Shown: positions 18,550-46,598 of the stretch, piece after piece | Layout: the number at the start of each line of letters is the position of its first letter | How positions within the stretch are numbered: position 1 is the first letter of the stretch | From: an uncultured Clostridia bacterium | GTDB lineage: Bacteria; Bacillota; Clostridia; Oscillospirales; Acutalibacteraceae | Assembly: GCA_947627725.1 (NCBI GenBank) | Contig: CANQXE010000016.1 | Coordinates: forward strand, 1-59,698 | Reading direction: 5' to 3' | Length of the DNA: 59,698 nucleotides | Notes under the pieces: model-generated | The model's database searches: none | The model's input: the letters and a program-made list of their open reading frames with translations, nothing else | What the model was told of the DNA's origin: nothing | Program-made: the position numbers and the translations under genes

Positions 18550-19941
18550 TTAGTATTCTACTTTTAAATTTTCCTCTGCCTCTGCTACCTTAAGCATAAT
18601 TGCGCATTCAATTCTTTTTCTGTGCAGCTCACAACCGAACTTATAAATTCCGTTGACAGAGCCGGTCGTGTGGTATGCGTTGGCGGCACAGCCTCCTGAG
18701 CAGTAAAGCTTTGCAAAGCAGTCTTTACATTCACTGTGTGAATAAACATTGCATTTTTCAAACTGTTCAAGAACTTGTTTGTTTTTTATACCGTTCCATA
18801 TGTCGCCGAGCAAAAAGCTCTCGTCACCGACAAACTGGTGGCACGGATAAAGCTCGCCGGTCGGTGTAACGGCAAGGTACTCCGTACCGACACCGCAGCC
18901 TGAAACTCTCTTGACGATACAGGGACCCGCGTCCAAATCAATCATATAGTGATAGAAAGTAAATCCGGCGCCCTTTCGATATCTCTTAAGCATTTCATCT
19001 GCGAGGATTTGGTACTGCTCCTTTAGTACAGGCAAATCCTCTTCTTTTAGTGCGTACGGCTCGTTGGGGTCGGATACCACCGGCTCAATGGAAAGCTCCC
19101 TGAATCCTAAATCTGCCATATGTATAATATCGCTTGCAAAGTCAAGATTGTTATGAGTGTATGTACCTCTCATATAGTAGTCCTTTTGCTTTCTTGAATC
19201 AGCAAATTTTTTAAACTTATTAACAATTAAATCATATGAGCCGCTGCCGTTAGGGGAGACTCTCATCATGTCATTGGTTTTTTTTCTTCCGTCAAGTGAA
19301 AGAACAACATTGCTCATTTCCCTGTTGCAGAAATCAATAACATCATCGTTTATGAGAAGTCCGTTTGTCGTTAAGGTAAATCTGAAATTTTTATTATATT
19401 TCTTTTCCTGTTCTCTGCCGTATTCAACGAGCTTTTTGCAAACCTCCCAGTTAAGCAGAGGCTCGCCGCCGAAAAAGTCTACCTCAAGATTTTTTCTTGT
19501 ACCGCTCTGTTCAATGAGAAAGTCAAGCGCTCTTTTTCCTGTCTCAAGGCTCATCAAGCCCTTAGGACCGTCATATTCTCCCTTGCCCGCAAAGCAGTAT
19601 TTGCAGGCGAGATTGCAGTCATGAGCGACATGAAGACAGATTGCCTTGATAACTCCCTGACGTTTTTTAAACTGCTGCGCAAGCTCCTCAAAGGTATCGT
19701 CGGCGAACAGTCTTCCGTCACGTATAAGATTTTCAATATCATCAAAGCAAATGTCTATTTCTTCTGATGTAACCTCGTCATTATCCCTGTATTTTTCAAG
19801 AATAAATGATTTAATTTCTTCCCGGCTTTTTTCCTTATACATAGTAATAATATCATATGTCGCTTCGTCAACCGAATGTACGCATCCGCTGTTTTGGTCA
19901 AGTATGATATTATAGCCGTTCATTTTATATGCGTGAATCAT
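18550..19941 (-). CDS. scfB: SCIFF peptide maturase (radical SAM/SPASM thioether synthase)
   Basis: Forms Cys-to-carbon thioether links in the SCIFF peptide. The 463-residue enzyme has an N-terminal RiPP-recognition-like domain (residues 1-95), the radical SAM cluster CNLACKYC (C109, C113, C116), DFFGGEPLLNW near 165, and C-terminal SPASM/Twitch cysteines (GCGVGTEYLAVTPTGELYPC, then CKDCFAKLYCSGGC). The precursor gene lies 56 bases upstream on the same strand, which settles the family. The ATG follows GGAG with normal spacing. A terminator-like hairpin between precursor and enzyme probably lowers enzyme synthesis relative to peptide. Confidence 0.95.
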   Translation of the reverse strand: MIHAYKMNGYNIILDQNSGCVHSVDEATYDIITMYKEKSREEIKSFILEKYRDNDEVTSEEIDICFDDIENLIRDGRLFADDTFEELAQQFKKRQGVIKAICLHVAHDCNLACKYCFAGKGEYDGPKGLMSLETGKRALDFLIEQSGTRKNLEVDFFGGEPLLNWEVCKKLVEYGREQEKKYNKNFRFTLTTNGLLINDDVIDFCNREMSNVVLSLDGRKKTNDMMRVSPNGSGSYDLIVNKFKKFADSRKQKDYYMRGTYTHNNLDFASDIIHMADLGFRELSIEPVVSDPNEPYALKEEDLPVLKEQYQILADEMLKRYRKGAGFTFYHYMIDLDAGPCIVKRVSGCGVGTEYLAVTPTGELYPCHQFVGDESFLLGDIWNGIKNKQVLEQFEKCNVYSHSECKDCFAKLYCSGGCAANAYHTTGSVNGIYKFGCELHRKRIECAIMLKVAEAEENLKVEY

Positions 19942-20188: not shown

Positions 20189-21496
20189 TTACTCTGCCTT
20201 TGTCAATATGCTGTCGGGCAGCAAATTATCATCAGATATCATATTTACGCCATTTTCAAGGCACAGCCTGATATAGCTTATAATCTCCTCGCTTATTATT
20301 TCTCCGGGAATAATTATAGGTACGTCGGGCGGATAGGCGAAAATATAAGCCGCACAGATTTTTCCGACACTTTTTTCAAGCGGAGTAGCGACCGCTTTTT
20401 CTGATTCGCTTGACTTATACCTTTTTTGCGGGATAGTAATTTTTTTTGTAAACCTTTTTATATCACTTCTTTTCTCTATACTGCTTAATGCATTATAGAG
20501 CAGTTCAAAGCCTTTTTGAGTGTCGGCAACAGTGGAAATAAGTATAACAAAATTAAGCGTTGCTCCCTCAGGTTCAATCTTGTTATTTCTCAGATGCTCT
20601 GCAAGCTCAGCGCCTGTATATCCCTTTGCAGAAATTATCAGCCTTGTTAAATCATCATTAGGATAAACAGATATGTTTTCAATTTTCTTTACTCTTTTAT
20701 AAAAGCCGTCGATTAGTGATTTGTATTTTTCAAAAGCCTCTCTGCAAGCTTTCAAAAAGTCAACGCATATGTCAACAGAGCTGAGAAGAACGTAGCTTGG
20801 CGAGCTGGTTTCAAATATATCCATATACATTTTTACTTTCCTAAAGTAACCTTCATTATTAATATGAACAACGGCGGTTTGCGTAAGACAAGGAAGAGTT
20901 TTATGCAGAGATTGGATAATGATGTCACCGTCCGCTTTTTTGGGAAGCCACTCTGCGAAGCCGAAATGAGCCCCGTGAGCAGCGTCAACAATAAGCGGTA
21001 TTTCACACTTTATTTCACTGACAATTCCCTCGTAGGTAGGGGAGGTGATAACAATTGCCTTAGCGTCAGAATTTTCTTTCAGCGCGTTGTCAACAGTTTT
21101 TTGATTTATTCTTCCGTATACTCCGAGTTCGTCAATAAATTCAGGCTCTAAATAAATAACATCAAGCTCCTGCAAAAAGCAGGCGTCGTACACGGATTTG
21201 TGACAGTTTCTTGCTATAATTATTTTTTCGCCTTTTTCGCATACAGCGCATATTGCTGATAAAATCCCGCAGGTTGAGCCGTTGACCGATATAATACTTT
21301 TTTTATATCCGAACAAATTTGAAATATCTTTTTCAAGCTCTGACAAAATCCCTTTCGGACAATGCAGATTGTCAAAACCATTCATTTCGGTAATATCAGA
21401 CCAAGCGCCTGTTATATTAAATTTTTCGTTTCTCTTGTGACCGGGCATATGAAACGGATATGTGTTCAGCTTTGATAATTTGTCATTTAATTTCAA
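20189..21496 (-). CDS. Orn/Lys/Arg decarboxylase-family PLP enzyme
   Basis: A 435-residue fold-type I PLP enzyme of the short Orn/Lys/Arg decarboxylase group (YaaO-like). It has FHMPGHKRN at residue 15, the cofactor phosphate region SVNGSTCGILSA near 70, IVDAAHGAHFG near 170 and the PLP lysine in QSLHKTLPCLTQ near 195, with the small C-terminal decarboxylase domain (YPPDVPIIIPGE). The likely reaction is decarboxylation of a basic amino acid to a polyamine; the substrate is not resolved. The TTG start lies inside the end of the upstream membrane-protein gene (14-base overlap), so the two are coupled. Confidence 0.85.
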   Translation of the reverse strand: MKLNDKLSKLNTYPFHMPGHKRNEKFNITGAWSDITEMNGFDNLHCPKGILSELEKDISNLFGYKKSIISVNGSTCGILSAICAVCEKGEKIIIARNCHKSVYDACFLQELDVIYLEPEFIDELGVYGRINQKTVDNALKENSDAKAIVITSPTYEGIVSEIKCEIPLIVDAAHGAHFGFAEWLPKKADGDIIIQSLHKTLPCLTQTAVVHINNEGYFRKVKMYMDIFETSSPSYVLLSSVDICVDFLKACREAFEKYKSLIDGFYKRVKKIENISVYPNDDLTRLIISAKGYTGAELAEHLRNNKIEPEGATLNFVILISTVADTQKGFELLYNALSSIEKRSDIKRFTKKITIPQKRYKSSESEKAVATPLEKSVGKICAAYIFAYPPDVPIIIPGEIISEEIISYIRLCLENGVNMISDDNLLPDSILTKAE

Positions 21497-22022
21497 CTAA
21501 GCTTTTCTCCTTATTCAGATTAAGTATACAAAGCATTATGTATCCTGCAAATATCGGCATAAGCTCAATAAAGGCAGTTTCTTTAAAAATAATCAGAAGT
21601 ATTAAGTCAGTTAATAATATTGCGCCGCTTGCCGCACACAGCACATAAGCTTTTCTCAGTAAAAAAAGGAGAAATACGCATACTCCCGTAATCGCCGAAA
21701 AAGTGAGCGAGCCCACACAATGCAAAATATATTCATTATATTTGTCGTAGTCAAAATCAAAGCATATCGTCAGAAGCATACCGATAAGTGATACGGCAAG
21801 CAGGGGAATGTAAAATCTGTACTTTGTTTTTTTGTAACCTATTGTTATGTTTACGGCCAGAGCAAAATATGTAATTATACCCCAAATTGCAAAAAGGACA
21901 GGGTGTAAAAGACCTATTTTTGAGAGAGCACCGCTGTTTCCCGATAGAGTGCCGAGACTTGCATATATAACGGAATATATAATTGCAATTATGCACGATA
22001 AAACACAAATAATATTTTTCAT
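21483..22022 (-). CDS. Hypothetical multi-pass membrane protein
   Basis: A 179-residue protein with about six membrane helices (for example IICVLSCIIAIIYSVIYASL, VLFAIWGIITYFALAV, FYIPLLAVSLIGMLLTI, ITGVCVFLLFLL). No family motif is recognised. It overlaps the start of the decarboxylase gene by 14 bases on the same strand, which suggests a shared function such as transport or a regulator, but that is only position. Confidence 0.7.
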   Translation of the reverse strand: MKNIICVLSCIIAIIYSVIYASLGTLSGNSGALSKIGLLHPVLFAIWGIITYFALAVNITIGYKKTKYRFYIPLLAVSLIGMLLTICFDFDYDKYNEYILHCVGSLTFSAITGVCVFLLFLLRKAYVLCAASGAILLTDLILLIIFKETAFIELMPIFAGYIMLCILNLNKEKSLVEIK

Positions 22023-22053
22023 AATTTCACCTACTCTATTGTATCATATTTAA

Positions 22054-22082
22054 TTGACATTTCAAGCAAGTTGTGTTATTAT
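22054..22082 (+). promoter_or_regulatory. Strong promoter ahead of the tRNA-Leu(CAG) array
   Basis: A perfect TTGACA (22054-22059), 17-base spacer and TATTAT (22077-22082). It lies 30 bases before the first tRNA 5' half and is probably the original tRNA promoter. Confidence 0.65.
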
Positions 22083-22111
22083 TCATTTGCTGATTTTAAA
22101 ATTTAATATAT

Positions 22112-22435
22112 GCAGAAGTGGCGGAATAGGCAGACGCGCTAGATTCAGGTAACGCTACCTCTGTGAAAAGTAATAATTTCAGCATTTGCTGTTATTATAA
22201 AATGTGGATTAAGCAAAACGCTCCACCTTGGAACTCCTCGCCGTGTAAAATTTAGAGGACAAAGATGGAATATGCAGGAGTGGCGGAATAGGCAGACGCG
22301 TATGATTCAGGTAACGCTACCTCTGTGAAAAGTAATAATTTCAGCATTTGCTGTTATTATAAAATGTGGATTAAGCAAAACGCTCCACCTTGGAACTCCT
22401 CGCCGTGTAAAATTTAGAGGACAAAGATGGAATAT
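22112..22435 (+). repeat. Two tandem 162-bp units, each starting with a tRNA-Leu 5' half
   Basis: Units start at 22112 and 22274, exactly 162 bases apart, and the true tRNA starts a further 162 bases on at 22436. Each unit begins with the acceptor, D-arm and anticodon loop of tRNA-Leu(CAG) up to TTCAGGT, then departs into an identical 122-base non-tRNA segment with hairpins (AATAATTTCAGCA/TGCTGTTATT and GTGGA/TCCAC). The first unit differs in the acceptor (GCAGAAG) and anticodon stem (CTAGA for TATGA). This looks like repeated site-specific insertion or tandem duplication at the anticodon loop. Confidence 0.85.
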
Positions 22436-22522
22436 GCAGGAGTGGCGGAATAGGCAGACGCGTATGATTCAGGTTCATATCGGCGTGAGTCGGTGAGGGT
22501 TCAAGTCCCTTCTCCTGCACCA
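22436..22522 (+). tRNA. tRNA-Leu (anticodon CAG)
   Basis: Complete class II tRNA: acceptor GCAGGAG/CTCCTGC, anticodon stem TATGA/TCATA with loop TTCAGGT (anticodon CAG), variable arm CGGCGTGAGTCG, T-arm with TTCAAGT, encoded CCA. It is the last of three copies of its own 5' half and marks the left edge of the AT-rich accessory region. Confidence 0.93.
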
Positions 22523-22528
22523 GGAAGA

Positions 22529-22562
22529 CAAACCTATTTTAGTTTTATAGGTTTGTTTTTTG
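22529..22562 (+). terminator. Terminator after tRNA-Leu(CAG)
   Basis: ACAAACCTAT/ATAGGTTTGT stem followed by a long T run. Confidence 0.75.
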
Positions 22563-22587
22563 TTTTTTGTAGAGACGGGAGGTTAAT

Positions 22588-23514
22588 ATGACAACAAAGA
22601 AAAAACTTGTTGTTACTACTTGTATATTGAGCGTATTTTCTATAATTATGGCAATATTCTTTAATTATGTATTCCATTTTGAATTTTGGACAAACTTTTC
22701 ATTTGCTATTTTTGGAAGTGCTCTATTAGGATTTATTATGTCACTAGTTGAATATAGGGTAGAACGAAAAAGAGCTTTAGAAGAATATTATTTAAATTCA
22801 TCAAAATTAATTAATTTTTTTTCAAAAGCTAAATACTTTATTTCGATTGCCCCTAGTGAATTATTGATTAATTATTATAATGAGTTAGCAAATAGTAATC
22901 CAATGTTTAATGCTAATGATAATTCATCTGCTAAAGAAGATTTGTTTGAATTTATGCATAATATTTGGATTAATACAATAGATATACCTGAACCTGATTT
23001 TTCAGATTTTGAAAAGCAAGAATTTGATAAGTTTACTGAGAATATTAAAAAAGAATTAGTTGAAACAGTTTTATCATACATTACGATCTCAGAAACAGAT
23101 CTTTCTCAACTAGAAATGGCATATGGCAATTTAGATTTTTTATTTGGGAATCGAAAATTAAGAGCAAAAGTATTTAGTGATATACATAAACCACTTCAAG
23201 AATATAAAAAGTATATAGATGAAAAGGTATATCATTTTAGAGGTTTCATGAATTCACAATACAATAATTTTGGAGTTATAATTAAGCTAATTGATGATAT
23301 TCAATTAAAGTATTTTAAAATTATTAATACTTCAGATGAGTATATGTTTAGGATTACTGTATATAAGGATTTTCTTGATAAAATTACAGATAATACTAAT
23401 TGGCTAAAATGCAAAATATATCATCAAAATCATACAGAAGACAAGCATACACCTTTAATAGGTTATCAAGAAATGTTAAAATTGAAATCGATTATTGTAA
23501 AAAATGTGAGATAA
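22588..23514 (+). CDS. Membrane-anchored helical protein of unknown function
   Basis: A 308-residue protein with two N-terminal membrane helices (LVVTTCILSVFSIIMAIFF and WTNFSFAIFGSALLGFIMSL) followed by a 250-residue cytoplasmic, Lys/Glu-rich helical region. No enzymatic motif is recognised. It has its own ribosome site (GGGAGG) and is closed by a strong symmetric terminator, so it is a single-gene unit. It is the first gene after the tRNA, on the opposite strand to the mobilization genes, and is AT-rich. Such positions often carry cargo; a defence role is possible but unsupported. Confidence 0.75.
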   Translation: MTTKKKLVVTTCILSVFSIIMAIFFNYVFHFEFWTNFSFAIFGSALLGFIMSLVEYRVERKRALEEYYLNSSKLINFFSKAKYFISIAPSELLINYYNELANSNPMFNANDNSSAKEDLFEFMHNIWINTIDIPEPDFSDFEKQEFDKFTENIKKELVETVLSYITISETDLSQLEMAYGNLDFLFGNRKLRAKVFSDIHKPLQEYKKYIDEKVYHFRGFMNSQYNNFGVIIKLIDDIQLKYFKIINTSDEYMFRITVYKDFLDKITDNTNWLKCKIYHQNHTEDKHTPLIGYQEMLKLKSIIVKNVR

Positions 23515-23575: not shown

Positions 23576-25177
23576 TCAAGATACCAAATTTAATATTTGA
23601 ACTTCATCAAAATTTAATGTGTGTTCTTTAAATTTTCCGTTTAAGATAATGTTAATGTCCAACTTTCCACTCTGTTCAGATATGTTTATCTTATCAATCA
23701 AAATTCTCAAATCAGAATCGGATATGGCACCCTCGTCAATGATTTTATTAAATATTTCAATACTGCTCGATATTTCTACTTTTCGCTTTTTGATTGTTGC
23801 ATCCATTTCCTCAAGTTCTGAAATTTGTTTAGATAAAGTTTCAATATCATTTTCGCACTTATCAAGCATTTGGGTATAAACATCTGCTCGCTCTTTATCC
23901 CTCAATCGTTCAAGCAGGATTTCCTGTTGGTCAGATTTTCTTTGAGATAACTGTTCGTTAAGAAAATTAATATTATTTTGAGTTAGACTTTTATTTCTCT
24001 GCCAAGTGTTTAGTTTTGCATCAATTCGCTTAAAATTCTCAATTGCATTATCTCTTATTACAAGTAACTCATCATAGATAATTTTATCAAGTGCGGATTC
24101 TTTAATTCTATGCGGTGAACAATGTTCTTTTCCGTAGCGATGATAACTGTTACAGACATATTCATAGTATGGTTTTCTATCTCTGAATTTTCTTGTCTTG
24201 CAGGAAAAACTTGAACCGCAATCACCGCATTTAATTAATCCTGTGTATCTATGATAAGGCTTATTTGAGCTTGCTCTTACATTATTGTGTTTTTTATTTT
24301 CCAAAAGATATTGTACCTTGTCAAACACATCTTTATCAATGATTGCCGGAACAAAGTTCTCATGCCTGAAATGTTCATCGGCAGGCAAATTCTTTCTGAT
24401 ATGATTTATCTTATTTGTATAAGACTGATGACATACAACTGTTCCAATGTAGAATTCATTTTGCAGAATTCTTTTTACAGCAGTTCCTTCCCATAGGTAT
24501 CTGCTTGTAATTTCAGGCTTGGTATAAGGAATTCCTTTGCCGATATATTTTTGCTGATAAAATCTCGGAGTTTTTATTCCTTCGCTATTAAGCGTTTGAG
24601 CTATAGTTTTCAATCCATATCCGTTAAGATACATTTGAAATATCCTTCTGACAATGTTTGCAGGTTCTTCCATTATGAGAATCTCTTTTGTATTTTTGTC
24701 TTTGAAATATCCCATAGGAGGTATCATAACCAAGCCTTCTTTTTGCTTTTGAAGAAATCCTGCACGGACTTTTCTGCTGATGTCACGAGCATACATATCG
24801 TTGAATAATCCTTTAAAGCCGATAATTAAATCATCATTTTCATTGCTTGTATCAAGATTTTCTGTAACAGATAGCACCTTGACATCATTCTCACGCAAAT
24901 AATCAATAAACAATGCAGTCTGCGTTTTATGTCTGCCAAGTCTTGACATATCTTTAACGATTACTGCATCAATTGATTTGTTTTCAATGGCTTCATAGAT
25001 TTTGTTGATACCATCACGGTTGAAATGCATACCGCTTACATTGTCATCAAAGGATTCACCTACGATATTAAAATTGTTATTCTCAGCATATTCTCTGATG
25101 ATATTCTGCTGATTTGTCAATGAATTTAATTCATCATCTTCATCTCTTGAGAGTCGTGCATATAACCATACTCGCAT
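23576..25177 (-). CDS. Large serine recombinase (integrase)
   Basis: A 533-residue site-specific recombinase of the type carried by Clostridia mobilizable transposons. The catalytic serine is S10 in LYARLSRDED, followed by the resolvase domain with IVKDMSRLGRHKTQT, then the recombinase domain (GYFKDKNTKEILIMEE, AQTLNSEGIKTP) and a zinc ribbon (LIKCGDCGSSFSC with CNSYHRYGKEHC), ending in a coiled coil. I place the start at 25177 (MRVWLY), which has AGGAGTG in front; an upstream ATG lacks one. It probably integrates and excises the element in this window. The attachment sites are not identifiable by eye. Confidence 0.93.
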   Translation of the reverse strand: MRVWLYARLSRDEDDELNSLTNQQNIIREYAENNNFNIVGESFDDNVSGMHFNRDGINKIYEAIENKSIDAVIVKDMSRLGRHKTQTALFIDYLRENDVKVLSVTENLDTSNENDDLIIGFKGLFNDMYARDISRKVRAGFLQKQKEGLVMIPPMGYFKDKNTKEILIMEEPANIVRRIFQMYLNGYGLKTIAQTLNSEGIKTPRFYQQKYIGKGIPYTKPEITSRYLWEGTAVKRILQNEFYIGTVVCHQSYTNKINHIRKNLPADEHFRHENFVPAIIDKDVFDKVQYLLENKKHNNVRASSNKPYHRYTGLIKCGDCGSSFSCKTRKFRDRKPYYEYVCNSYHRYGKEHCSPHRIKESALDKIIYDELLVIRDNAIENFKRIDAKLNTWQRNKSLTQNNINFLNEQLSQRKSDQQEILLERLRDKERADVYTQMLDKCENDIETLSKQISELEEMDATIKKRKVEISSSIEIFNKIIDEGAISDSDLRILIDKINISEQSGKLDINIILNGKFKEHTLNFDEVQILNLVS

Positions 25178-25206
25178 TTTATCACTCCTTTCGCAAGCAC
25201 ACATTA

Positions 25207-25478
25207 TCACAACTCCTCTTCCAAGTCCAGACGATTAGAATTATTTTCATTGCAGATTGAAATATCGTTGTTGAATAGATAGTTTTTAATGATTGATTCT
25301 AAAAATTTATCAAATTCGTTTTGCTTTCCGTTGTAGGAAATCGTAACACTGTTAATGTTATTCTGAATTTTATTCATTGCCATACGGCAACACAGATTCT
25401 AAAAGTTTTCCGTCATTCCTCCAATCAAATTGTATTTGCGATAATAATGATCGACTTGTTTTTTAGTTTTTGTTTCAT
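25207..25478 (-). pseudogene. Broken small mobile-element gene upstream of the recombinase
   Basis: The minus strand holds a decayed small gene. An ATG (25476-25478) after AAAGGAAA opens MKQKLKN, then the frame shifts in an A-rich run into KKQVDHYYRKYNLIGGMTENF, which ends at an in-frame amber codon (25399-25401), and the same frame continues as NLCCRMAMNKIQNNINSV and on to EEEL. A 58-residue piece from an internal ATG (25381-25383) to the stop at 25207 is still open and could be translated. Small genes at this spot are common in such elements. A stem CCTGCCGA/TCGGCAGG lies at 25493-25512 between it and the relaxase gene. Confidence 0.6.
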
Positions 25479-25522: not shown

Positions 25523-26881
25523 TTACATAAATATTTTTGGACCTTGTTCTTCTTCATAGTCATTATTGTAACTTCCGTCAGAAGATAAATCTTTCAGTCC
25601 GTGTGCAAGGCGTTTTTCCTGTTCCTTTGATAATAGTTTTCTGTCAAACTGTTTGTTAAGATTATCAAATCTTTTTCTCGCACTTGCATTGAACATATCT
25701 GCAAGTAAACTCACAACAGAAGATAAAATCATTCCGTTGTCGGTGTAATTCCATTTTTGATATGGAATATGGCAATCCATTTTGAGTACAGCTTGTATGA
25801 TTTTGTTCTTGATTGATCTGAATTCTTTGTTCTCCTCAATCGGAATGATTTTGTTTTTGTTATCATAATACAACGATAGCTTTTCATTATTAATCTCATT
25901 CCATTTGTCATAAAGAGCAGAGAGGTTGTCATTTTTCATTAACTCTTTTAGAATTTCATTGACAATTTCTTTTGTCTTTTTGGGAAGATAACCATAGGCT
26001 TTCTTACCCTTGCAGTTATCAAGTTGCTTTCTCAATTCCAAAATCAGATTAAATAACTGTGGTGACGGCTCTAAGATGTAATTATAATCATCAAGAACTT
26101 CTTCAAGCAATTCATTAAAACTGTCTTTCAATTCATCACGATATCTGGTTTGCATTTTAAAATGCTTGTACTGTTCGTTGCGGAAAATATCGTTGCCGAA
26201 TGCACTTCGCATAGATTCAATGCCTTTGTTGGTAAGAAAACCTTGTCCGCTTTTTGAATATACAACTAAATGAATATGCGGATGATGCGTTGTGTTGTGA
26301 AACGCTGCATACCATTTCAGATCTGACGGCGGAATGTTATGCGCCTTTGCAATCTCAATCATATTTTTTCTGACTTCCTTTTTCCATTTGTCAGCATTGT
26401 TGTAACCGAGTCTTTCAGCATCTTCTCGTTTCAAACTTATCACGTGTGTCCATACAATTCCGTTGTGATTTGATACTTCTTCCGCAACAAAATCAATGTT
26501 AATCTTATCATCTGTTTGAGAAAACAATCCGTGCTTGCCGAGCTTTTCCACACCCGGTCGTTCTGCAATATATGATACTAACGCTTTGAGTTCGTCAGTT
26601 CTGTCTGCATTTCTTTCAATGAATGTATCAATAAACTCTGTTGCATTTGACTTTGTAGGTTTGCTTGCGTAATCAACAAATTCAATATACTTCTTTGTTT
26701 TAGGATAATTCTTTATGATTGAATTGATTAATGTTTGTTGCTTTTTTGTTTCAGGAGAGTTGTCAATTCCATTCGGTAATTTCTCAACACCCTCACGAGT
26801 TCCCATATATTTAACTAACTTACCTACATTAGAACGCTTTGGATTTTTAAAATATCTGCTTGTAAAAATTATCTTAGCCAT
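25523..26881 (-). CDS. MobP-type relaxase
   Basis: Conjugative relaxase of 452 residues that would nick oriT and pilot the strand into a recipient. The HUH signature is HNTTHHPHIHLVVYS (about residues 195-209), with an N-terminal block IIFTSRYFKNPKRSNVGKLV and KYMGTREGVEKLP typical of MobP3-like proteins from Firmicutes elements. The start is the ATG at 26881 (MAKIIF) after AAGGAATTCT. It overlaps the upstream relaxosome gene by eight bases. No coupling protein or type IV secretion genes are in the window, so the element is mobilizable rather than self-transmissible as far as can be seen. Confidence 0.9.
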   Translation of the reverse strand: MAKIIFTSRYFKNPKRSNVGKLVKYMGTREGVEKLPNGIDNSPETKKQQTLINSIIKNYPKTKKYIEFVDYASKPTKSNATEFIDTFIERNADRTDELKALVSYIAERPGVEKLGKHGLFSQTDDKINIDFVAEEVSNHNGIVWTHVISLKREDAERLGYNNADKWKKEVRKNMIEIAKAHNIPPSDLKWYAAFHNTTHHPHIHLVVYSKSGQGFLTNKGIESMRSAFGNDIFRNEQYKHFKMQTRYRDELKDSFNELLEEVLDDYNYILEPSPQLFNLILELRKQLDNCKGKKAYGYLPKKTKEIVNEILKELMKNDNLSALYDKWNEINNEKLSLYYDNKNKIIPIEENKEFRSIKNKIIQAVLKMDCHIPYQKWNYTDNGMILSSVVSLLADMFNASARKRFDNLNKQFDRKLLSKEQEKRLAHGLKDLSSDGSYNNDYEEEQGPKIFM

Positions 26882-27290
26882 AGAATTCCTTTGCCAATGC
26901 AGAATCATATTTTATTGAATTGAAATCAATTATGCCGTTTGTTGTTGCAACTTTTTCTGCACATACATTATCAAGATATTGTGACAATTCATCATCAATT
27001 TTGTAAGCATAACTTAAAATACAATTCTGCTTTGCTGATTCAACAGCTAATTTAAATATCAATTCTGATAAGCAATCCTGCAAAGACTCAACTTGATTTT
27101 TGATTTCGTTACTGACAAGTGGTGCAAGATAATCTGCACTTTTCTTGTGCATAAGGTAGCCGATGTAGAAATTCACGGCTGATCTGACGAATGAACTTTT
27201 GTTATCATCATACGAAAAAGGCAATGTTTTTTCAATTTCGTCTATCATTTCCGGACGCATCCAGATTGAATACTTCTTCATATTTTCCAT
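26874..27290 (-). CDS. Relaxosome accessory protein, ribbon-helix-helix type
   Basis: A 138-residue protein whose N-terminus (KYSIWMRPEMIDEIEKTLPF, then SSFVRSAVNFYIGYL) has the shape of a ribbon-helix-helix DNA-binding domain, followed by a helical C-terminal region. It is directly upstream of and overlaps the relaxase, as MobC-type accessory proteins do; they bind oriT and help the relaxase. The ATG at 27290 follows GGAGATATTT. Confidence 0.75.
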   Translation of the reverse strand: MENMKKYSIWMRPEMIDEIEKTLPFSYDDNKSSFVRSAVNFYIGYLMHKKSADYLAPLVSNEIKNQVESLQDCLSELIFKLAVESAKQNCILSYAYKIDDELSQYLDNVCAEKVATTNGIIDFNSIKYDSALAKEFYG

Positions 27291-38456: not shown

Positions 38457-38631
38457 AGATAATATTATATTTGTAAATGTGGTTTTGGAATCTATAGGTA
38501 TCAGGCTGGACAAGCTTTCGTTGTTATATTTTTCTGCCTTATTTCATTTATGTGAATGATATATAAAATTATTCATTGTGTTTTTACTAATATTATATGT
38601 ATTTAATTAATAAATAATGGAGGTATATTAT

Positions 38632-41600
38632 ATGGAAAAGAAAAAAGTAAGCAGGGTAATATGGTCTGTTATTATAATAACGCTTTTAATTGCTGTTATT
38701 GCCTTAATAATAGCTCTTGTTGCCAACCAAAAAGCAGAGCCGGCGTCAAAGCAGATTGAAGACGGTCTGTCCGCATATGAATTAGCGGTGAAGCACGGCT
38801 ACGATGGCACAGTTCAGGAGTGGATTTTATCACTGGAAGGAAAATCTGCCTATGAAATTGCGGTAGACAACGGTTATTCCGGAACGGAAGACGAATGGTT
38901 GGCATCATTGAAGGCATCTTCTCAGGAAACAGTGGGCATTAATACTGCCAAATTTAACACTTCCGGAGAATTGATTTTAACCCTTTCGGATGGAACTGAT
39001 TTGAATTTAGGGGTTGCGGTTGGTAAAAACGGTGCAAATGGTAAAGATGGCGTCAATGGAAAAGACGGCACACCGGGGACACAGGGCAAAGCAGGTGTAG
39101 GTCTAACCGCAGCTAATATTAACGAAAAAGGCGAACTGATTTTATCATTCACAGACGGCAAGACAATAAATTTGGATAAGATTGTCGGAAGTCAAGGTGT
39201 GGACGGTATAGGCATAACGGCATCTGAAATCAATGAAAAAGGTGAGCTGGTTCTTTCTTATTCCAATGGGCAGTCGGCTAATTTAGGTCTGGTAGTTGGT
39301 GCTGACGGCAATAACGGCAAGGATGGTATTGACACCATTACCGACACACAAATTAATGATGCAGGAGAGTTAGTTATAACCTTTTCTGACGGTAGTGAAA
39401 AGAATGTAGGAGCCGTCGTTGGTGCAGATGGCAGAAACGGTGAGAACGGTATTGGCATCAGCAATGTGGAAATCACATCAGAAGGCGAACTCGTTTTAAC
39501 CTATTCAAACAATCAAAGATCCAATCTTGGAAAAGTAGTAGGCGCTAACGGTACGAACGGCACAAACGGAAAAGACGGCATCAGCGTTACAAAATCCGAA
39601 ATCAATTCCAAAGGAGAATTGGTGCTCACCTATTCCGATCATAAGGTTGAAAATCTCGGTCCTGTAGTCGGCGCCGACGGAAAAGACGGATTAAATGGTA
39701 TAAACGGAACTGATGGCGAGGATGGCGTCGGAATCAAAGAAATTGTTATCCGTGACGGCAAAAATCTTGTAATAACATTGACAAACGATTCGGTAATTGA
39801 CTTGGGCTGTGTGAAAGGCGCCGACGGGGCAAATGGCAAGGACGGTAAAGATGGTAAAGACGGTATCAGTATGACCGGTGCTTCCATCAACAGTTCAAAA
39901 GAACTTGTATTGAAATTTTCGGACAATACTGAGAAAAACCTCGGTGTAGTCGTTGGTGCAGATGGAAAAGACGGCGAGAAAGGACAGGACGGAGAAAACG
40001 GTACAGACGGAAAAGACGGTATAGGTATTGAGAAAACTGAAATTAACGGTTTGGGTGAGTTGGTTATTACCTACTCAAACGGCGAATCTGATAATTTGGG
40101 TGTAATCATTCGCGATAACGGCTCAACCGGCGTTCCTAATGATGCTCCGCGTGTGCGGATCAACAGCGATACAAACGAATGGGAAATATCCACCGACGGC
40201 GGTCATGAATGGATCTCTACGGAGGTAAAAGCTACCGGAGCAGACGGAGTCAGTATGACGAACGCTTCTATTAATGATCAAAATAAGCTTGTTATTTCCC
40301 TCTCTGACGGTACACAAAAAGAGTTGGGTGTAGTTGTCGGTGAAAACGGCAAAGATGGAAAAGACGGTAAAAACGGCGAAGACGGCATAGGCGTCAGCGG
40401 CGCAGAGATTAACGACCAAAATCATCTGGTGCTGACACTTTCCGACCATCAGCAGATTGATGTCGGTGTAGTTGTGGGAACAAACGGTACTGACGGAAAA
40501 GACGGTAAAAACGGCGTCGGCATTCAAAATGTAACTGTATCTGAAGAGGGAATCCTGACCGTCACGCTGGACAGCGGAGCAGAACTGATACTTGGCAATA
40601 TCAAGGGCAAAGACGGCATAGGCATTGCCAAGATTGAAATCAACTCGGAAGGCAAACTGGTTATAACCTATACCGATAATAAGGTTGTCACTTTAGATAA
40701 AGTAGTCGGCAATGACGGCGTGGGTATAAAAAAAGCAGAAATCACTGATGATTTTATGCTCAAATTAACTTTTACAAATGACGAAACTCAAACAGTTGGT
40801 CCTATCAGAGGAGAAAAAGGTGCTGACGGCGTTGGTATTAAAAATATTACTATTGGTGACGATGGTTATCTCTATGTAACCTATGACAACGACAGCGAAC
40901 CGAAGAAGATTGCTTACATAAAAGGCGACCCTGGCGCAGACGGCAAAACGCCGTATATCAAGAATGGCAACTGGTGGATCGGAGATACAGATACAGGCAT
41001 TAAGGCAGAGGGTACTGATGGAAAAGACGGTAAAAACGGCGTATCAGTAAAATCTGTCCGTGTAAGTGATGATAAGCATCTGATTGTAACTCTCAGCGAC
41101 GGAACAGAGGTTGATGCGGGCTATGTTGGCGTAACAGATGATAATCCGTCAACAAAAACTTACACTGTAACATTTAAAGATTATAACGGTAATGTTTTGA
41201 AAACCGAATATGTTGCTCAGGGAAAATCGGCAACTCCTCCGCCCAATCCGTCAAGAGATGGATATGTGTTTACAAAATGGGATAATGACTTTAATAATGT
41301 TACGAGAGACATTATTGTTACTGCCCAATATGAAAAAATTACCGGACCGACATTTGTAGTAGATAATGTTACTGCAAAGGCGGGAGATACTGTTGAAGTA
41401 GCAATTAACATTTATAATAATCCGGGCATATTGGGAATGGCTTTAAATGTGTATTTTGATGAAAATGTTTTATCCCTAACAAATGTTACAAATGGTGAGG
41501 CTGTATCTGATGTACTTACACTTTCAAAGCCGGCAAAAAGACCATATAAAAGCGGCAGTTTATTTAATTTTGACGGGCAGGAAGTTTTACCGGAGCAAAC

Positions 41601-41760
41601 AAAAGACGGCGCCGTATTAGTTTTAACATTCACCATAGAATCTGATGCGCAGAAAGGTACATATCCAATAACTATTACCGATAAGAATGGCGATACAATA
41701 AATAATGATTTGGAAAGTGTTTCTGTTAATTCAATTAATGGCAGCATAACCATATCTTAA
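38632..41760 (+). CDS. Membrane-anchored collagen-like stalk protein ending in a cohesin
   Basis: A 1042-residue surface protein. An N-terminal membrane helix (about residues 8-30) is followed by two LSAYELAVKHGYDGT/KSAYEIAVDNGYSGT repeats, then about 700 residues of tandem units, each a GxDGKDGKNG collagen-like stretch plus a beta unit of the type ITxxEINxxGELVLTYSD-xxxNLGxVVG. An InlB-type B repeat (YTVTFKDYNGNVLKTEYVAQ, about 842-900) and a C-terminal cohesin-like domain (VVDNVTAKAGDTVEVAINIY, about 903-1042) close it. This would hold a dockerin-binding module far from the membrane. The repeat DNA is clearly richer in G+C than its neighbours. The start is the ATG after GGAGG. Confidence 0.85.
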   Translation: MEKKKVSRVIWSVIIITLLIAVIALIIALVANQKAEPASKQIEDGLSAYELAVKHGYDGTVQEWILSLEGKSAYEIAVDNGYSGTEDEWLASLKASSQETVGINTAKFNTSGELILTLSDGTDLNLGVAVGKNGANGKDGVNGKDGTPGTQGKAGVGLTAANINEKGELILSFTDGKTINLDKIVGSQGVDGIGITASEINEKGELVLSYSNGQSANLGLVVGADGNNGKDGIDTITDTQINDAGELVITFSDGSEKNVGAVVGADGRNGENGIGISNVEITSEGELVLTYSNNQRSNLGKVVGANGTNGTNGKDGISVTKSEINSKGELVLTYSDHKVENLGPVVGADGKDGLNGINGTDGEDGVGIKEIVIRDGKNLVITLTNDSVIDLGCVKGADGANGKDGKDGKDGISMTGASINSSKELVLKFSDNTEKNLGVVVGADGKDGEKGQDGENGTDGKDGIGIEKTEINGLGELVITYSNGESDNLGVIIRDNGSTGVPNDAPRVRINSDTNEWEISTDGGHEWISTEVKATGADGVSMTNASINDQNKLVISLSDGTQKELGVVVGENGKDGKDGKNGEDGIGVSGAEINDQNHLVLTLSDHQQIDVGVVVGTNGTDGKDGKNGVGIQNVTVSEEGILTVTLDSGAELILGNIKGKDGIGIAKIEINSEGKLVITYTDNKVVTLDKVVGNDGVGIKKAEITDDFMLKLTFTNDETQTVGPIRGEKGADGVGIKNITIGDDGYLYVTYDNDSEPKKIAYIKGDPGADGKTPYIKNGNWWIGDTDTGIKAEGTDGKDGKNGVSVKSVRVSDDKHLIVTLSDGTEVDAGYVGVTDDNPSTKTYTVTFKDYNGNVLKTEYVAQGKSATPPPNPSRDGYVFTKWDNDFNNVTRDIIVTAQYEKITGPTFVVDNVTAKAGDTVEVAINIYNNPGILGMALNVYFDENVLSLTNVTNGEAVSDVLTLSKPAKRPYKSGSLFNFDGQEVLPEQTKDGAVLVLTFTIESDAQKGTYPITITDKNGDTINNDLESVSVNSINGSITIS

Positions 41761-41786
41761 TAATTATAATGAAAGGATGTTATAAG

Positions 41787-44700
41787 ATGAAAATTAGACA
41801 ACGATTAATTGCATTTTTAGCGGCAATTATTCTTGTTGTTACATCGTTCCCTGCCGGAGTGTTGACATCATTAGCCGCTGAAAATAGCAAAGCTGCAATT
41901 ACTGTTGACAACAATAGTGCAAAACCCGGTTCAACTCTTGATGTAAATATCATAATTAATGATAATCCGGGTGTTCTCGGTGCAACTATAACAGTCAGCA
42001 ATGATGAACAACTGACTTTGGTTAACGCAAAATCGGGTTCAGCATTTGAAAAACTTTCATTTGGAAAACCCGGAATATATGGTTCAACCAATAAATTCAC
42101 ATGGGATGGAGAAAAAATATCACCCGAAGACATAAAAGACGGCGTTATTTTAACATTAACATATCAAATAGCAGAAGATGCAGAGGTTGATACTTCTTAT
42201 CCTATAACTGTTAGTTATGAATTTGGTGATGTAATTGATGCCGATATGGGTCCTGTTGAATTGCAGATATCAAACGGTTATGTTACTGTTATTGATTACA
42301 CACCCGGTGATGTAAATGAAGATGGTCAAATAAATGCAACAGACTGCGTATATATCAGAAGACATATTACTGGCGGTTATAATCTAAATGTTTTTACGGA
42401 AGCGGCTGCCGATGTAAATGCAGATGGTAGGATTAATTCAACAGATATTGTTCTTATCCGCAGATATATAGTTGATGAGTGTAAATATGATCCTGAGGGC
42501 TATGGTGTAATTTTAAGGCCTTCAACCAACAGGCATATTCATAATATGCAGGCATTTGAAAAGAAAGAGGCAACATGTACAGAAAACGGTAATATTGCTT
42601 ATTGGTATTGTGAAGATTGCGGAAATTATTATGAAGATGCCACAGGTGTTAAAGCGATTACCTTTGAAAATACAATTGTCAAAGCAAAAGGGCATACGAT
42701 TGTTGTTGACTCGGCAGTTCCGCCTACTTATTCTAAACCGGGCTTAACAGAGGGTTCACATTGTTCTGTTTGTGGAACTGTTATTAAGCCTCAAAAAGAA
42801 ATTCCCAAGCTTCAAAAAACCGAATACTCTATTACTTACCATATTAGCAACGGCGATGAGTATTTAGCAAAGCAGGATATTGAAAATACGAATCCGAATA
42901 CTTATACATCAGAAGAAGGAATTCCAAAGTTTTCTAATCCATCGGTACCGGGATATCAATTTCTTGGATGGTATGATTTACCATCCGGTGATGCAGCTGA
43001 AAATATTAAATCAATTCCTGTAGGAACATCTGGAAATATTGATTTGTATGCAAAATGGGAAAAGATTTCATATAAAGTTAACTTTTCATCAGATCTTATT
43101 CCCGTTGCTTCAGAAACTTATACTGTAGATGAAGATCATGTTCTTCCATCGCCGAAACTTGATGGATATATTTTTGCCGGATGGTCTGATGATAACGGCA
43201 CAGTTATAAAGACCATTCCTTCAGGAACTATTGGTTCAAAAACTTATACTGCAAACTGGATAAGTGAAAGAAACCAGGCTTGGACCTATAATAATGTTGG
43301 AACACCTTTAATCTACGAAGACAACGAGTCTAATACAATATTGTTTATTTACAATATTGGTGAGATAAGAAATGTACCATTATCTGTAGTTCACGATTTT
43401 GGGAAAATCAACTCTAACGGTGTAACTAAAACACATACCGAAACCTTTACCAAAACAATCAGTGAAGAATGTATGGATACATACACAAATACTGTTCAGA
43501 AAGCAACAACGGATTCTTATTCTTGGACTCTTGCAAAAGAATGGAGCAATTCTACAACCGTTAATGAAACATGGGCAAAGGAAAACTCTGTTACCGAAGA
43601 ACAGATTAATTCATATTACAAAGATCAAAGCAACAATTGGTATGTCAGCAGTGGGCAAAGCGGTTCTGATTCTATCACAAGCACCGATACCTCATCGGAT
43701 TCATTAATGCTTTCTTCCGTAAGAAACAAAAAAACTGATGACAAGCATTCTACCAGCACCGAAACAAATATATCCGCAAATTTGGACATCAAAAACACTA
43801 CAACGATAGGTGCTGAATTGCCGATTAAAGGTATAAATGTTTCTGCAGAAAACAAAACTGAAATAGGCTTTGGCTTGTCAGGTTCTATAAATAATAAGGA
43901 ATCCCATTCCAGTAGAGTTCAGACTGACAACACAGACAGCGCTCAGTATAATAAGTCCAACTATGCGTCAACTACAGCTAACTCAACATCAAGCTGGAAC
44001 ACTGAATCCGGTTACGGCGGAAGTTCATCTGTTGGGCAGAGCCAAACTTCTTCCAAGGCAATATCCGAAAAAATAAGTGAGGAATATAACATCGGTAAGA
44101 GTTATATTAATACCGATTCGGAAAGCAGTACACAAGGAACACAAACCTCACAGTCTACATCAGATGAATATTCTTCAGCCGTAACATATTCAACTATAGA
44201 AGGTCAAGAGGTAACAGAAACCTACACAACACAGAATACAATGTCAGGCTATCATCGTTGGATAATGGCGGGTACTGCTCATGTGTTTGCAATTGTAGGA
44301 TATGATATTGCCTCAAAATCATATTTTACTACAACCTATAGCGTTATGGATGACAAAATGTACGAATATGAAGACTATTCATATCAAACAGCATCATATG
44401 ACGATAATGAAAGTTCATTAATTAAATTTGAAGTCCCCATGGATATAACCGCCTATGTCGGAAATCGCGTTTGTGAAAGTGATGGTCTTGAAGTTTCAAA
44501 ATCGGGTGTTATAACAAATTATACCGGCACAGATGAATATGTTGTTATTCCTGAGTATAAAGTCATTAATAATCAAGATGGAACAAATTCTGTTATAAAA
44601 GTTACGGGAATCAGTTCAACTGCTTTTGCAGGAAAAGATATCACAGGAATTGAGCTTTCTGATTTTATAAAAGAAATACCTGATAATGCTTTTAAAAATT

Positions 44701-46217
44701 GCACATTACTTGAATCAATTAATGCGGCCGGAATTACAAAGATTGGCAACAATGCTTTTGAAGGATGCACAAAGCTTGGCGAATTGACAATCGGAAACAA
44801 TATTACCGAAGTCGGCACCAATATTGTTAGCAATGAAACGGTGCTTACGGTTTCAGCTGCAAATAAATCAATTGTTGAGGCAGCGGTTCAATCCGGCGCA
44901 AAAGAAATCTATCTGAGAATTACTGACAAATGTATCGATCTTAGTGATACCACCTTAAATATTCCAAGTACAACAGAAACATTTATATTTAATGGATTTG
45001 GCAAAACATATAATAATTTAAGAATTGTGTCGGATGCAAAAGAAACAATAATTAACAGAGCCAATCTCATCTGTAATGGGCAGACACCGTTAGTTATTTC
45101 TTCCACTAAAGTTGAATTGCATGAGGTTAATGTTACATCACCCGGTATATGCTTGGCTCTGACAGCAAATAACACAAATCTTGCTTTAAGGGGCGAATCA
45201 ACATTAACTGCATCTTCCGGAAATTCTATGCTTTGCAAGGAAATTTCACTCAGCCAGATTGATGCTTCTCTTTCAACATCTCTAACAGTTGACGGCAATC
45301 TCTTAATTTGTACTTCAAAGGATTCTATTATTGCAGGGGAAAAATTCCTGATTGTAACAGGCAAAATAATCGGAATAACAGAGGATGAGTTTAACAATTA
45401 TCTTAAAGGTGTATTTACAGTACACTTTGACGCCAATAACGGTAGTGTTTCCGAAACGGAAAGAACTGTGGTTTACGGTTCAACACTTGAAACACTTCCA
45501 AAGCCTACCAGAGATTATTATACATTTGATGGCTGGTTTACTGATGTTGAAGGCGGAGAAAGAATAACAGATAAAACTGTATTCACTTCAACAGAAGATG
45601 TAACTTACTATGCTCACTGGACAATAAAACCGCTTTCAGATTGGGTTAAAGCATCCGAATCGCCGAAAGATGCTAAAGTTGAAAATACAAAGTACACATA
45701 TACTCAGCGTTTATATACAACATCTGCATCTTCAAGTATGAATGGATGGACAAAGTATGATACCAAGAGAACTTCTTGGGGAGCAAAACAAGGACCTGTC
45801 TATTCAGACCCATCAAACGGTTCGCGAAATGTTACATCGGAACAATATGTTGCTTCTCAAACTACACATTATGTTTATTACCATAGATATAAGAGTGGTG
45901 CATGGTCAGACGATGCTCATGCAGGTTCATGGGCCAGACATTCAGGACCTGATGTAACATCACCATTACCCAATGGTTACTATAGTTCTACAACAGGTCA
46001 GAGATATTCCGGTGCTGCCTGTGCATCTTGTGGTGCAACAAATCAATGGCACCTTGATTATACATATCAAACGAACAACTATGCTACTCGTTGGTACTAT
46101 CAAGAACCTATTTATACCTATTATTTCTATAAGGATGAAGATAAAGAATCTGCCACCACTCCAAGTGGCAATGATATTTCAAATGTTCAGGAATGGGTAC
46201 AATACAGAGAAAAATAA
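41787..46217 (+). CDS. Secreted cohesin-dockerin-LRR protein
   Basis: A 1476-residue secreted protein with signal peptide (RLIAFLAAIILVVTSFPAG). Domains in order: cohesin-like (about 35-170, related to that of the preceding protein), a type I dockerin with two calcium loops (GDVNEDGQINATDCVYIRR and ADVNADGRINSTDIVLIRR, about 173-232), InlB B-type repeats (about 350-490), a long Ser/Thr-rich segment with many TST tracts (about 500-850), a BspA-type leucine-rich repeat block (AFKNCTLLESINAAG, about 940-1010), another B repeat (about 1210), and an aromatic C-terminal domain. Carrying both a cohesin and a dockerin, it could bridge two partners. It lies 26 bases after the stalk gene. Confidence 0.85.
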   Translation: MKIRQRLIAFLAAIILVVTSFPAGVLTSLAAENSKAAITVDNNSAKPGSTLDVNIIINDNPGVLGATITVSNDEQLTLVNAKSGSAFEKLSFGKPGIYGSTNKFTWDGEKISPEDIKDGVILTLTYQIAEDAEVDTSYPITVSYEFGDVIDADMGPVELQISNGYVTVIDYTPGDVNEDGQINATDCVYIRRHITGGYNLNVFTEAAADVNADGRINSTDIVLIRRYIVDECKYDPEGYGVILRPSTNRHIHNMQAFEKKEATCTENGNIAYWYCEDCGNYYEDATGVKAITFENTIVKAKGHTIVVDSAVPPTYSKPGLTEGSHCSVCGTVIKPQKEIPKLQKTEYSITYHISNGDEYLAKQDIENTNPNTYTSEEGIPKFSNPSVPGYQFLGWYDLPSGDAAENIKSIPVGTSGNIDLYAKWEKISYKVNFSSDLIPVASETYTVDEDHVLPSPKLDGYIFAGWSDDNGTVIKTIPSGTIGSKTYTANWISERNQAWTYNNVGTPLIYEDNESNTILFIYNIGEIRNVPLSVVHDFGKINSNGVTKTHTETFTKTISEECMDTYTNTVQKATTDSYSWTLAKEWSNSTTVNETWAKENSVTEEQINSYYKDQSNNWYVSSGQSGSDSITSTDTSSDSLMLSSVRNKKTDDKHSTSTETNISANLDIKNTTTIGAELPIKGINVSAENKTEIGFGLSGSINNKESHSSRVQTDNTDSAQYNKSNYASTTANSTSSWNTESGYGGSSSVGQSQTSSKAISEKISEEYNIGKSYINTDSESSTQGTQTSQSTSDEYSSAVTYSTIEGQEVTETYTTQNTMSGYHRWIMAGTAHVFAIVGYDIASKSYFTTTYSVMDDKMYEYEDYSYQTASYDDNESSLIKFEVPMDITAYVGNRVCESDGLEVSKSGVITNYTGTDEYVVIPEYKVINNQDGTNSVIKVTGISSTAFAGKDITGIELSDFIKEIPDNAFKNCTLLESINAAGITKIGNNAFEGCTKLGELTIGNNITEVGTNIVSNETVLTVSAANKSIVEAAVQSGAKEIYLRITDKCIDLSDTTLNIPSTTETFIFNGFGKTYNNLRIVSDAKETIINRANLICNGQTPLVISSTKVELHEVNVTSPGICLALTANNTNLALRGESTLTASSGNSMLCKEISLSQIDASLSTSLTVDGNLLICTSKDSIIAGEKFLIVTGKIIGITEDEFNNYLKGVFTVHFDANNGSVSETERTVVYGSTLETLPKPTRDYYTFDGWFTDVEGGERITDKTVFTSTEDVTYYAHWTIKPLSDWVKASESPKDAKVENTKYTYTQRLYTTSASSSMNGWTKYDTKRTSWGAKQGPVYSDPSNGSRNVTSEQYVASQTTHYVYYHRYKSGAWSDDAHAGSWARHSGPDVTSPLPNGYYSSTTGQRYSGAACASCGATNQWHLDYTYQTNNYATRWYYQEPIYTYYFYKDEDKESATTPSGNDISNVQEWVQYREK

Positions 46218-46228
46218 AGTTTTAATTC

Positions 46229-46598
46229 AGCGAAAAGTCTGCCGTTAGGCAGGCTTTTCGCTTACTGTATTTTGTTTAATATGATTGTAAAAGGATTCGG
46301 AATCCTTTAGCCGAGCAAGGACAAAGCCTTGTGAACGCCAAGGTTCTGCATACGCAGTATACAGGTTCTTTTACCTCTGCCAAAGTTGGACAGTTCATAA
46401 TGAACTGTCCATTTTCTTTTGTCTTTTGGCAAATTTTTGCATCTTTTAAGGTGCTTTTTTAGTTCTGTGTGTATCTGCAATTATGTGTCTCAGACCTTTG
46501 TGAGATTTTTAGAGACCACAAATTCGTTAATCAATGCCAACTTGTTCAAAGACTTTTGAGAGATAAAGGCAAGGAATTGTTATCCCTTGCCTTTATCT
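46229..46598. terminator. Terminators downstream of the LRR gene
   Basis: Three strong stems: AGCGAAAAGTCTGCC/GGCAGGCTTTTCGCT (46229-46263), GGACAGTTC/GAACTGTCC followed by ATTTTCTTTT (46388-46410), and AGATAAAGGCAAGG/CCTTGCCTTTATCT (46561-46598). The 680-base gap 46218-46901 holds no gene I can support, only these stems and the structured repeat at 46270. Confidence 0.75.
46270..46385. repeat. Structured repeat, copy 1
   Basis: A 116-base sequence starting TTTTGTTTAATATGATT and containing AAGGATTC/GAATCCTTT, GCAAGG/CCTTGT and TGCATACGCAGTATACA stems, ending TACCTCTGCCAA. A second copy lies at 53818-53986, beyond the giant gene and its small neighbours. Confidence 0.75.

Follow-up and report, generated by a model that had tools for sequence, protein, structure and literature searches.

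A tandem array of tRNA-Leu(CAG) 5' halves in a Clostridia genome as the probable insertion trail of a serine-recombinase element, with a candidate leader RNA

Introduction

In the genome of an uncultured Clostridia bacterium (Oscillospirales; Acutalibacteraceae), three starts of a tRNA-Leu(CAG) gene follow one another at an even distance, and only the last continues into a whole gene. What could have placed two halves of a tRNA gene in front of its complete copy? A preliminary description of the locus, made from the sequence alone, offered three answers: a new RNA, a trail of insertions or an intron-like element. Comparison with related genomes indicates that the locus is most likely an insertion trail left by a new variant of tRNA-targeting element, together with a structured RNA leader. 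In what follows, the window is the whole stretch of 59,698 nucleotides that was analysed; it lies on contig C16 of the genome G000 (2.46 Mb, 58 contigs).

Results

Structure of the tRNA-Leu(CAG) array

The three 5' ends start at 22112, 22274 and 22436, with spacings of 162 and 162; units 1 and 2 are broken at the anticodon loop and unit 3 is complete (Table 1). This last unit is the sole complete tRNA-Leu(CAG) of the array (ARAGORN; Rfam RF00005, 52.6 bits), and the 5' halves in the window received no ARAGORN call. Over the 39 nt of the 5' half, unit 2 equals unit 3 exactly and unit 1 differs at 4 positions, three of which sit in the anticodon stem (CTAGA versus TATGA). The segments between the halves (22151-22273 and 22313-22435) are identical at 123 of 123 positions. 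A 162-bp near-identical repeat of a partial tRNA gene is far beyond chance expectation. The preliminary description thus stands as regards the three starts, their 162-base spacing and the genuine tRNA at the end, while its identical segment of 122 bases is indeed identical in both copies but measures 123 nt.

The TTGACA-17-TATTAT promoter that it had placed before unit 1 is also present, scoring 11/12 with a TG before the second hexamer, in a scan that returned 4 sites in 701 bp compared with 1.9 in shuffled sequence and no plus-strand promoter-like site within the array units. By eye, a comparable pair precedes tRNA-Leu in several relatives. The same scan listed minus-strand terminator-like sites, one per leader (22220-22234 and 22382-22396).

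Table 1 Features of the tRNA-Leu(CAG) array and the adjoining putative element in the window
Feature	Position	Strand	Basis or remark
Promoter-like site of native tRNA-Leu locus, TTGACA-17-TATTAT, TG-extended	22054..22082	+	Promoter scan
Unit 1: native tRNA-Leu(CAG) 5' half, putative host side of left attachment site	22112..22150	+	Flank runs into intact tRNA of L030
Putative element arm (R) of left attachment site	22151..22165	+	GGT + arm versus C5 arm: imperfect inverted repeat, 14/18
Element part on this contig (proposed)	22151..59698	.	Proposed continuation C5 78-17196, up to orphan 3' half C5:17197-17250
Candidate structured leader RNA, copy 1: hairpin P1 and proposed H-type pseudoknot	22204..22260	+	
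Unit 2: second tRNA-Leu(CAG) 5' half	22274..22312	+	Anticodon stem pairs 5/5 with C5 3' half
Putative element arm R, copy 2	22313..22327	+	
Candidate structured leader RNA, copy 2	22366..22422	+	
Complete tRNA-Leu(CAG), proposed element-borne replacement	22436..22522	+	ARAGORN, Rfam
Inverted repeat then T-rich stretch after tRNA; terminator-like by eye	22525..22559	+	Absent from terminator-scan list
Large serine recombinase (Resolvase + Recombinase + zinc ribbon), proposed integrase	23576..25210	-	PF00239, PF07508, PF13408
MobP3-family relaxase	25523..26908	-	NCBIfam 334.5 bits, cut-off 150

An orphan 3' half and the extent of the element

A BLAST search of G000 with the array retrieved one orphan tRNA-Leu 3' half, at C5:17197-17250 (98% identical), where ARAGORN calls no tRNA. 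It also found two other tRNA-Leu genes, with anticodons GAG and TAG, and no second tRNA-Leu(CAG) at E 0.001 besides 22436-22522. On C5, a stretch ending in GGTGACGTTACCG runs into TCAGGT at the orphan 3' half, and TCAGGT is all that the two ends of the element have in common. The 77 bp that close the window also open C5, without a single difference, and the two further copies of this stretch are only 97% identical, so C16 and C5 probably adjoin. By eye, a transposase-like frame starts within the shared 77 bp. Given this join, the interval between the tRNA halves would be ~54.7 kb (37,548 + 17,119), with its left end in the window and its right end at C5:17196/17197.

Pairing between the halves is uneven. 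With unit 2, the C5 3' half pairs at 5/5 positions of the anticodon stem and at 6 plus one G-T of 7 in the acceptor stem; with unit 1, the figures are 2/5 and 7/7. Judged by the 2/5 anticodon stem with unit 1, a single simple insertion is insufficient to account for all the letters.

The interval is likely an integrative and mobilizable element (IME) of ~54.7 kb, combining a large serine recombinase, a relaxase and, if the contigs join as proposed, precise ends at a specific site. The best NCBIfam matches of the recombinase are cassette chromosome recombinases (CcrB 124 bits, far under the cut-off of 900). A Pfam scan of 30 proteins from the interval, a subset of its open reading frames, found neither conjugation or transfer-apparatus families nor a tyrosine integrase. 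A phage origin was rejected, as the recombinase had no match at E 1e-60 in 50,697 phage records; among viral contigs, none was confirmed. In a Subdoligranulum plasmid record with a relative of the recombinase (52% identity), the 17.6 kb inspected held no tRNA or att-like site. The cargo at 38617-52142 encodes very large proteins with dockerin, cohesin, leucine-rich repeat and peptidoglycan-binding domains, and the host flank encodes a SCIFF peptide maturase (18550-19941, minus strand; TIGR03974, 744 bits).

Uninterrupted sites and attachment arms

Flanks were compared with 16 of 29 relative loci (L007-L035). The left flank, 21404-22150, continues unbroken into the intact tRNA-Leu of L030 (82% over 753 bp), and the right flank on C5 matches L016 downstream of its intact tRNA (86% over 103 bp, of which the first 29 are tRNA). 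L030 and L017 both have an intact tRNA and no half in the stretch inspected. The tRNA-Leu(CAG) gene of G000 is directly legible as a split gene, with an orphan half on each side and an uninterrupted counterpart in relatives.

A second genome, G109, repeats this arrangement. Its recombinase is 60% identical and is accompanied by a half and a complete tRNA (L072), and an orphan 3' half with a like arm in front lies on a separate contig (L087), so that both element ends were found. The orphan halves of G109 pair at 7/7 positions in the acceptor stem, compared with 5 plus one G-T of 7 when either is swapped with the element's own tRNA; its anticodon stem does not discriminate between the combinations. 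A third orphan 3' half of this kind occurs in the genome of L073. Patterns for the orphan 3' half with arm, which would miss variants, matched in 1 of 80 genus genomes (G000 itself) and in 2 of 17 genomes of recombinase relatives.

The arms flanking the core are inverted repeats, at 14/18 positions in both G000 and G109, a value reached by 0 and 1 of 20000 shuffles, respectively. An exchange at T33-C34 (T33-T34 for tRNA-Leu(TAG)) is suggested by where this repeat is centred and by how far identity extends in L019, L077, L098 and the TAG elements. In G012, G048 and G050 the anticodon stem of the complete tRNA differs from that of the fossil half, and the complete tRNA there is therefore not derived from the half's gene. 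The idea that elements alter the anticodon stem of their tRNA against self-insertion was dropped, the stems being no different in L071, L072, L092, L094 and L098.

Linkage of the arrays to a recombinase clade

Relatives of the recombinase were tallied at 31 loci (at least 43% identity, copies of one contig counted once); a search by taxonomic order, scoring at most 3 candidates per genome, found relatives in at least 10 of 394 genomes, G000 included. A half and a complete tRNA-Leu, convergent with the recombinase gene and within ~3 kb of it, were present at 14 of the 31 loci, and two further loci have the array 5.8-6 kb off. Three have a complete tRNA-Leu alone. The other 12 show no such array in the available stretch, which for 8 of them comprises at most ~1.6 kb of flank; those with longer flanks are L101 and L102 (2.9 kb each), L073 (6.3 kb) and L074 (10 kb). 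Among the short-flank loci, L080 ends within a tRNA-Leu-like start, and at L100 a complete tRNA-Leu(CAG) lies on the opposite strand. Within 1.5 kb, arrays accompany 11 of the 31 recombinases at this level of identity and 0 of 27 recombinases that are at most 35% identical (Fisher p 0.0004), control loci whose flank is at most 1.9 kb and for some far shorter; by pattern, a complete tRNA-Leu is present at 2 of the 27. The arrays are spread over several genera and families.

Arrays with two halves occur at four loci outside the window, L070 and L098 (CAG) and L081 and L075:18935-19166 (TAG). Their successive spacers differ, with 113/124 identical columns in L070, 69/75 in L081, 72/214 in L098 and 27/36 in L075 (TAG). 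At L066 (11693-11892) and L012 the recombinase, 90% identical, directly follows an intact tRNA-Leu(CAG) and tRNA-Gly(CCC) with no 5' half, and perhaps belongs to an element that has lost its scar. At L101 and L102 (genomes G181 and G309), second recombinase copies with internal stop codons adjoin the uninterrupted relative.

A candidate leader RNA in the spacer

Each spacer consists of the 15-nt arm, an A+T-rich hairpin and a leader of the form GTGGATTAAGC...GCTCCACCTTGG...CTCCTCGCCGTGTAAAATTTAGAGGAC. A short pattern for this leader had 24 matches in 22 of 80 genus genomes, compared with 4 matches for the reversed pattern; 20 of the 24 have a tRNA-Leu(CAG) within ~0.5 kb downstream and the other 4 have no tRNA in the locus. 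The leader of G000 has CTTGG and escapes the pattern; its two copies are both in the array. In relatives, leader copies lie upstream of tRNA-Leu(CAG) singly or in tandem (L012, L033, L072). By eye, leaders with a long loop tend to precede native-looking genes, and those with a short loop to lie in element cassettes.

The alignment covers 26 of 31 candidates (omitting L007 1308, L007 1567, L023 1861, L071 8473 and L071 8622). In these 26 copies, both partners have changed at 5 of the 7 pairs of hairpin 1. For the second stem of the proposed pseudoknot, 25 distinct copies show 18 forms; it scores 346, with shuffles reaching at most 289 (0/500 as good) in a statistic that still includes the relatedness of the copies. 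Folded alone, the spacer has an ordinary energy (z -0.94), and the case for the leader therefore rests on conservation and pair changes. A known Rfam leader or riboswitch was rejected for want of a covariance-model match: in 22000-22600, searched up to E 5, Rfam returned the tRNA and three weak hits far under their gathering scores, and at gathering thresholds 14 relatives gave 15 tRNA hits and one Gut-1 RNA (L035), none within the leader. These comparisons make the leader a candidate new RNA family; a role in the control or protection of the tRNA precursor is a guess.

A second, unrelated insert in tRNA-Leu copies of relatives

An unrelated structured insert of ~115-140 nt, with the motif GGCGYAGCGGTCAAAATTT..AAATTTTGGGCACCGCAAGAG, breaks tRNA-Leu in the D arm right after GGCAG in relatives and is usually followed by a complete tRNA-Leu; it is absent from G000. 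The motif has 21 exact matches in 16 of 80 genus genomes and none when reversed. The insert lies in tRNA-Leu at L007, L009, L011, L018, L033, L034, L035, L129 (two in tandem), L130, L131, L133, L138, L141, L145 and L147, and with one mismatch at L024 and L075:18852; it stands outside tRNA-Leu at L134, L136 and L143, and before another tRNA 3' end at L137 and L148. Changes on both sides affect 5 of 22 predicted pairs (17 copies), and at the 8 loci tested, including L141, Rfam gave only tRNA and chance hits. It is possibly a new small mobile or structured RNA.

Proposed mechanism

It is highly probable that the array is the insertion trail of a serine-recombinase IME that splits tRNA-Leu(CAG) and carries a whole replacement. 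The preliminary description's trail of insertions is borne out by the end of an element, an orphan 3' half that matches, relatives with an unbroken site and like arrays beside related recombinases. We infer that the large serine recombinase is the cutter and would join the element's attP to tRNA-Leu(CAG) inside the anticodon loop, with the exchange at the dinucleotide T33-C34. After integration, the promoter and the tRNA 5' half would border the left end of the element, and the 3' half its right end, ~54.7 kb off. In serine integrases attP and attB differ and have a common core of ~2 bp; with so small a core, the element could not restore the tRNA through homology in the manner of tyrosine-integrase islands. 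It would instead carry a complete tRNA-Leu(CAG) and the leader RNA just inside its left end, a position in which the host promoter could read through the broken half and express the replacement.

The intact anticodon loop of the replacement would again be a target, and the next related element, or a local duplication, would add another 5' half and spacer to give a layered array whose period is the element arm, leader and half tRNA, here 162 bp. With no second tRNA-Leu(CAG) retrieved by BLAST at E 0.001, the genome's sole copy of this gene would be the one brought by the element. A tRNA-Leu with a TAG anticodon may read the same codon as the CAG tRNA, and such a gene is present; we therefore make no claim that loss of tRNA-Leu(CAG) would be lethal.

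Origin of unit 2

Two orders of events could have produced the second half. We lean slightly towards serial insertion, in which an earlier element, E1, would have entered the native tRNA (unit 1) and the present element the tRNA brought by E1, whose two halves would be unit 2 and the C5 3' half, with the spacers later homogenised by gene conversion. This is one version of the main explanation and not a competitor to it. The full anticodon-stem pairing of unit 2 with the C5 3' half (5/5, with 6 plus one G-T of 7 in the acceptor), set against 2/5 for unit 1, agrees with it. So does what follows the C5 3' half, a terminator-like stretch and ~50 bp that resemble the end of the recombinase gene as DNA (43/54 aligned columns; score 30 versus at most 18 in 6000 shuffles), although as protein this relic does not rise above shuffles (43 versus a maximum of 45). 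At L012 the tRNA is followed by an intact recombinase, and this locus matches the C5 flank (83% over 101 bp, E 3e-19), mostly through the tRNA end and intergenic DNA, with ~14 bp of recombinase gene. A protein-level search for such relics after the tRNA in 29 relatives gave clear scores at L009, L012, L023 and L034, which have real genes there, and 36 versus 35 in 60 shuffles at L018; the remaining relatives were not above their shuffles. Serial insertion predicts differing spacers, as seen in the four other two-half arrays; those of the window are nevertheless identical at 123/123 positions and its unit 2 half equals that of unit 3, though E1 appears decayed. Unit 1, moreover, pairs with C5 at 7/7 acceptor positions where unit 2 reaches 6 plus a G-T, and its own 3' partner is absent from the search of G000 at E 0.001.

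These last points bear on tandem duplication, by slippage or unequal exchange, of the 162-bp spacer and 5' half after one insertion. Such a duplication predicts exactly what the window has, identical spacers and a unit 2 equal to unit 3, and the 7/7 acceptor stem of unit 1 with the C5 3' half fits it as well. The C5 3' half would then need gene conversion, and the anticodon-stem mismatch of unit 1 with C5 (2/5) and the recombinase-like relic on C5 would call for separate events; the spacers of the four other arrays, too, have diverged. We regard duplication as a serious possibility, though not the one we favour.

Alternative readings of the halves

The halves are very unlikely to be functional RNA, whether tRNA half-molecules or an intron-like precursor, that owes nothing to insertion. 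Should the promoter-like site at 22054 be active, the halves would precede the tRNA in its transcript, and the spacer does contain a conserved structured leader, but they adjoin a recombinase clade and have their partner 3' half at the other end of the element, no Rfam intron family matches, and the tRNA of L030 and L017 is intact with no half in the stretch inspected. Of the new RNA proposed in the preliminary description, the conserved structured leader without an Rfam match survives, whereas the tRNA halves themselves look like scars.

An assembly artefact that multiplied one tRNA start is barely credible: the exactly repeated block of 171 bp exceeds the 77-bp overlap of C16 and C5, so that short-read assembly could have miscounted the copies and their number is uncertain, yet unit 1 differs from units 2 and 3, other assemblies show the same architecture with diverged units, and multi-half arrays do exist, since the four two-half arrays of other genomes have diverged halves.

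The suggestion of an intron-like element found no support, for a group I as for any other intron: at gathering Rfam gives only tRNA, its further hits up to E 5 are at chance level, and the 3' half is on another contig, beyond an IME-sized interval. A restoring attP of the tyrosine type was likewise discarded, the ends sharing only TCAGGT and the tRNA being a complete second gene behind a spacer.

Discussion

If the proposed mechanism is true, a serine integrase uses a tRNA gene as its target by bringing the whole gene along, the cell's tRNA-Leu(CAG) is a mobile, element-supplied part, and the array is a readable stratigraphy of past insertions. For one recombinase clade and one conserved target, the loci would offer several natural attachment sites, and the leader would be a compact candidate regulatory RNA of a tRNA gene. 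More tentatively, and in our view somewhat less likely than not, a family of serine-recombinase elements may have taken over the tRNA-Leu(CAG) gene of a Clostridia lineage, the resident gene being repeatedly replaced by mobile copies together with a new class of leader RNA that may control the tRNA or the element.

In the accessible parts of the open-access literature, we found no description of serine-recombinase elements that enter the anticodon loop and carry a complete tRNA, or of arrays of 5' halves. The closest known systems share some of its features. The cassette chromosome recombinases CcrA/B/C are the families that score highest for the recombinase in NCBIfam (CcrB 124 bits), but these scores fall far under the cut-off of 900, and the target and element are different. 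The serine-recombinase IMEs of Firmicutes resemble the present element in combining a serine recombinase with a relaxase and in accretion at one site; in the accessible parts of the two sources, however, their site-specific serine recombinases disrupt genes such as rumA and ICE genes (PMC5357655, PMC5704250). For the AICEs of Mycobacterium, Ghinet 2011 (PMC3218068) reports that eight serine recombinases use a single tRNA-Leu gene, a kind of integration described there as rare. These elements share the type of recombinase and the tRNA-Leu target but, compared by description only, are conjugative and belong to Actinobacteria, and the available part of that account mentions neither rebuilding of the tRNA nor 5'-half arrays.

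The tRNA islands of tyrosine integrases are collected in Islander (PMC4383910). According to the portion of that source at hand, 3760 islands have 3' fragments and 159 have 5' fragments, in agreement with the remark in the preliminary description that tRNA insertions usually leave 3' fragments. The likenesses include site-specific insertion into a tRNA gene, with the anticodon loop a known place of crossover, a split gene with a displaced fragment, and tandem arrays, with 125 cases of two or more islands (PMC4383910, as accessible). The attP of these islands, as the same text describes it, contains part of the tRNA, so that integration restores the gene. The element described here differs from them in its serine-family recombinase, in ends that share only TCAGGT, and in the complete tRNA and leader that it would carry inside.
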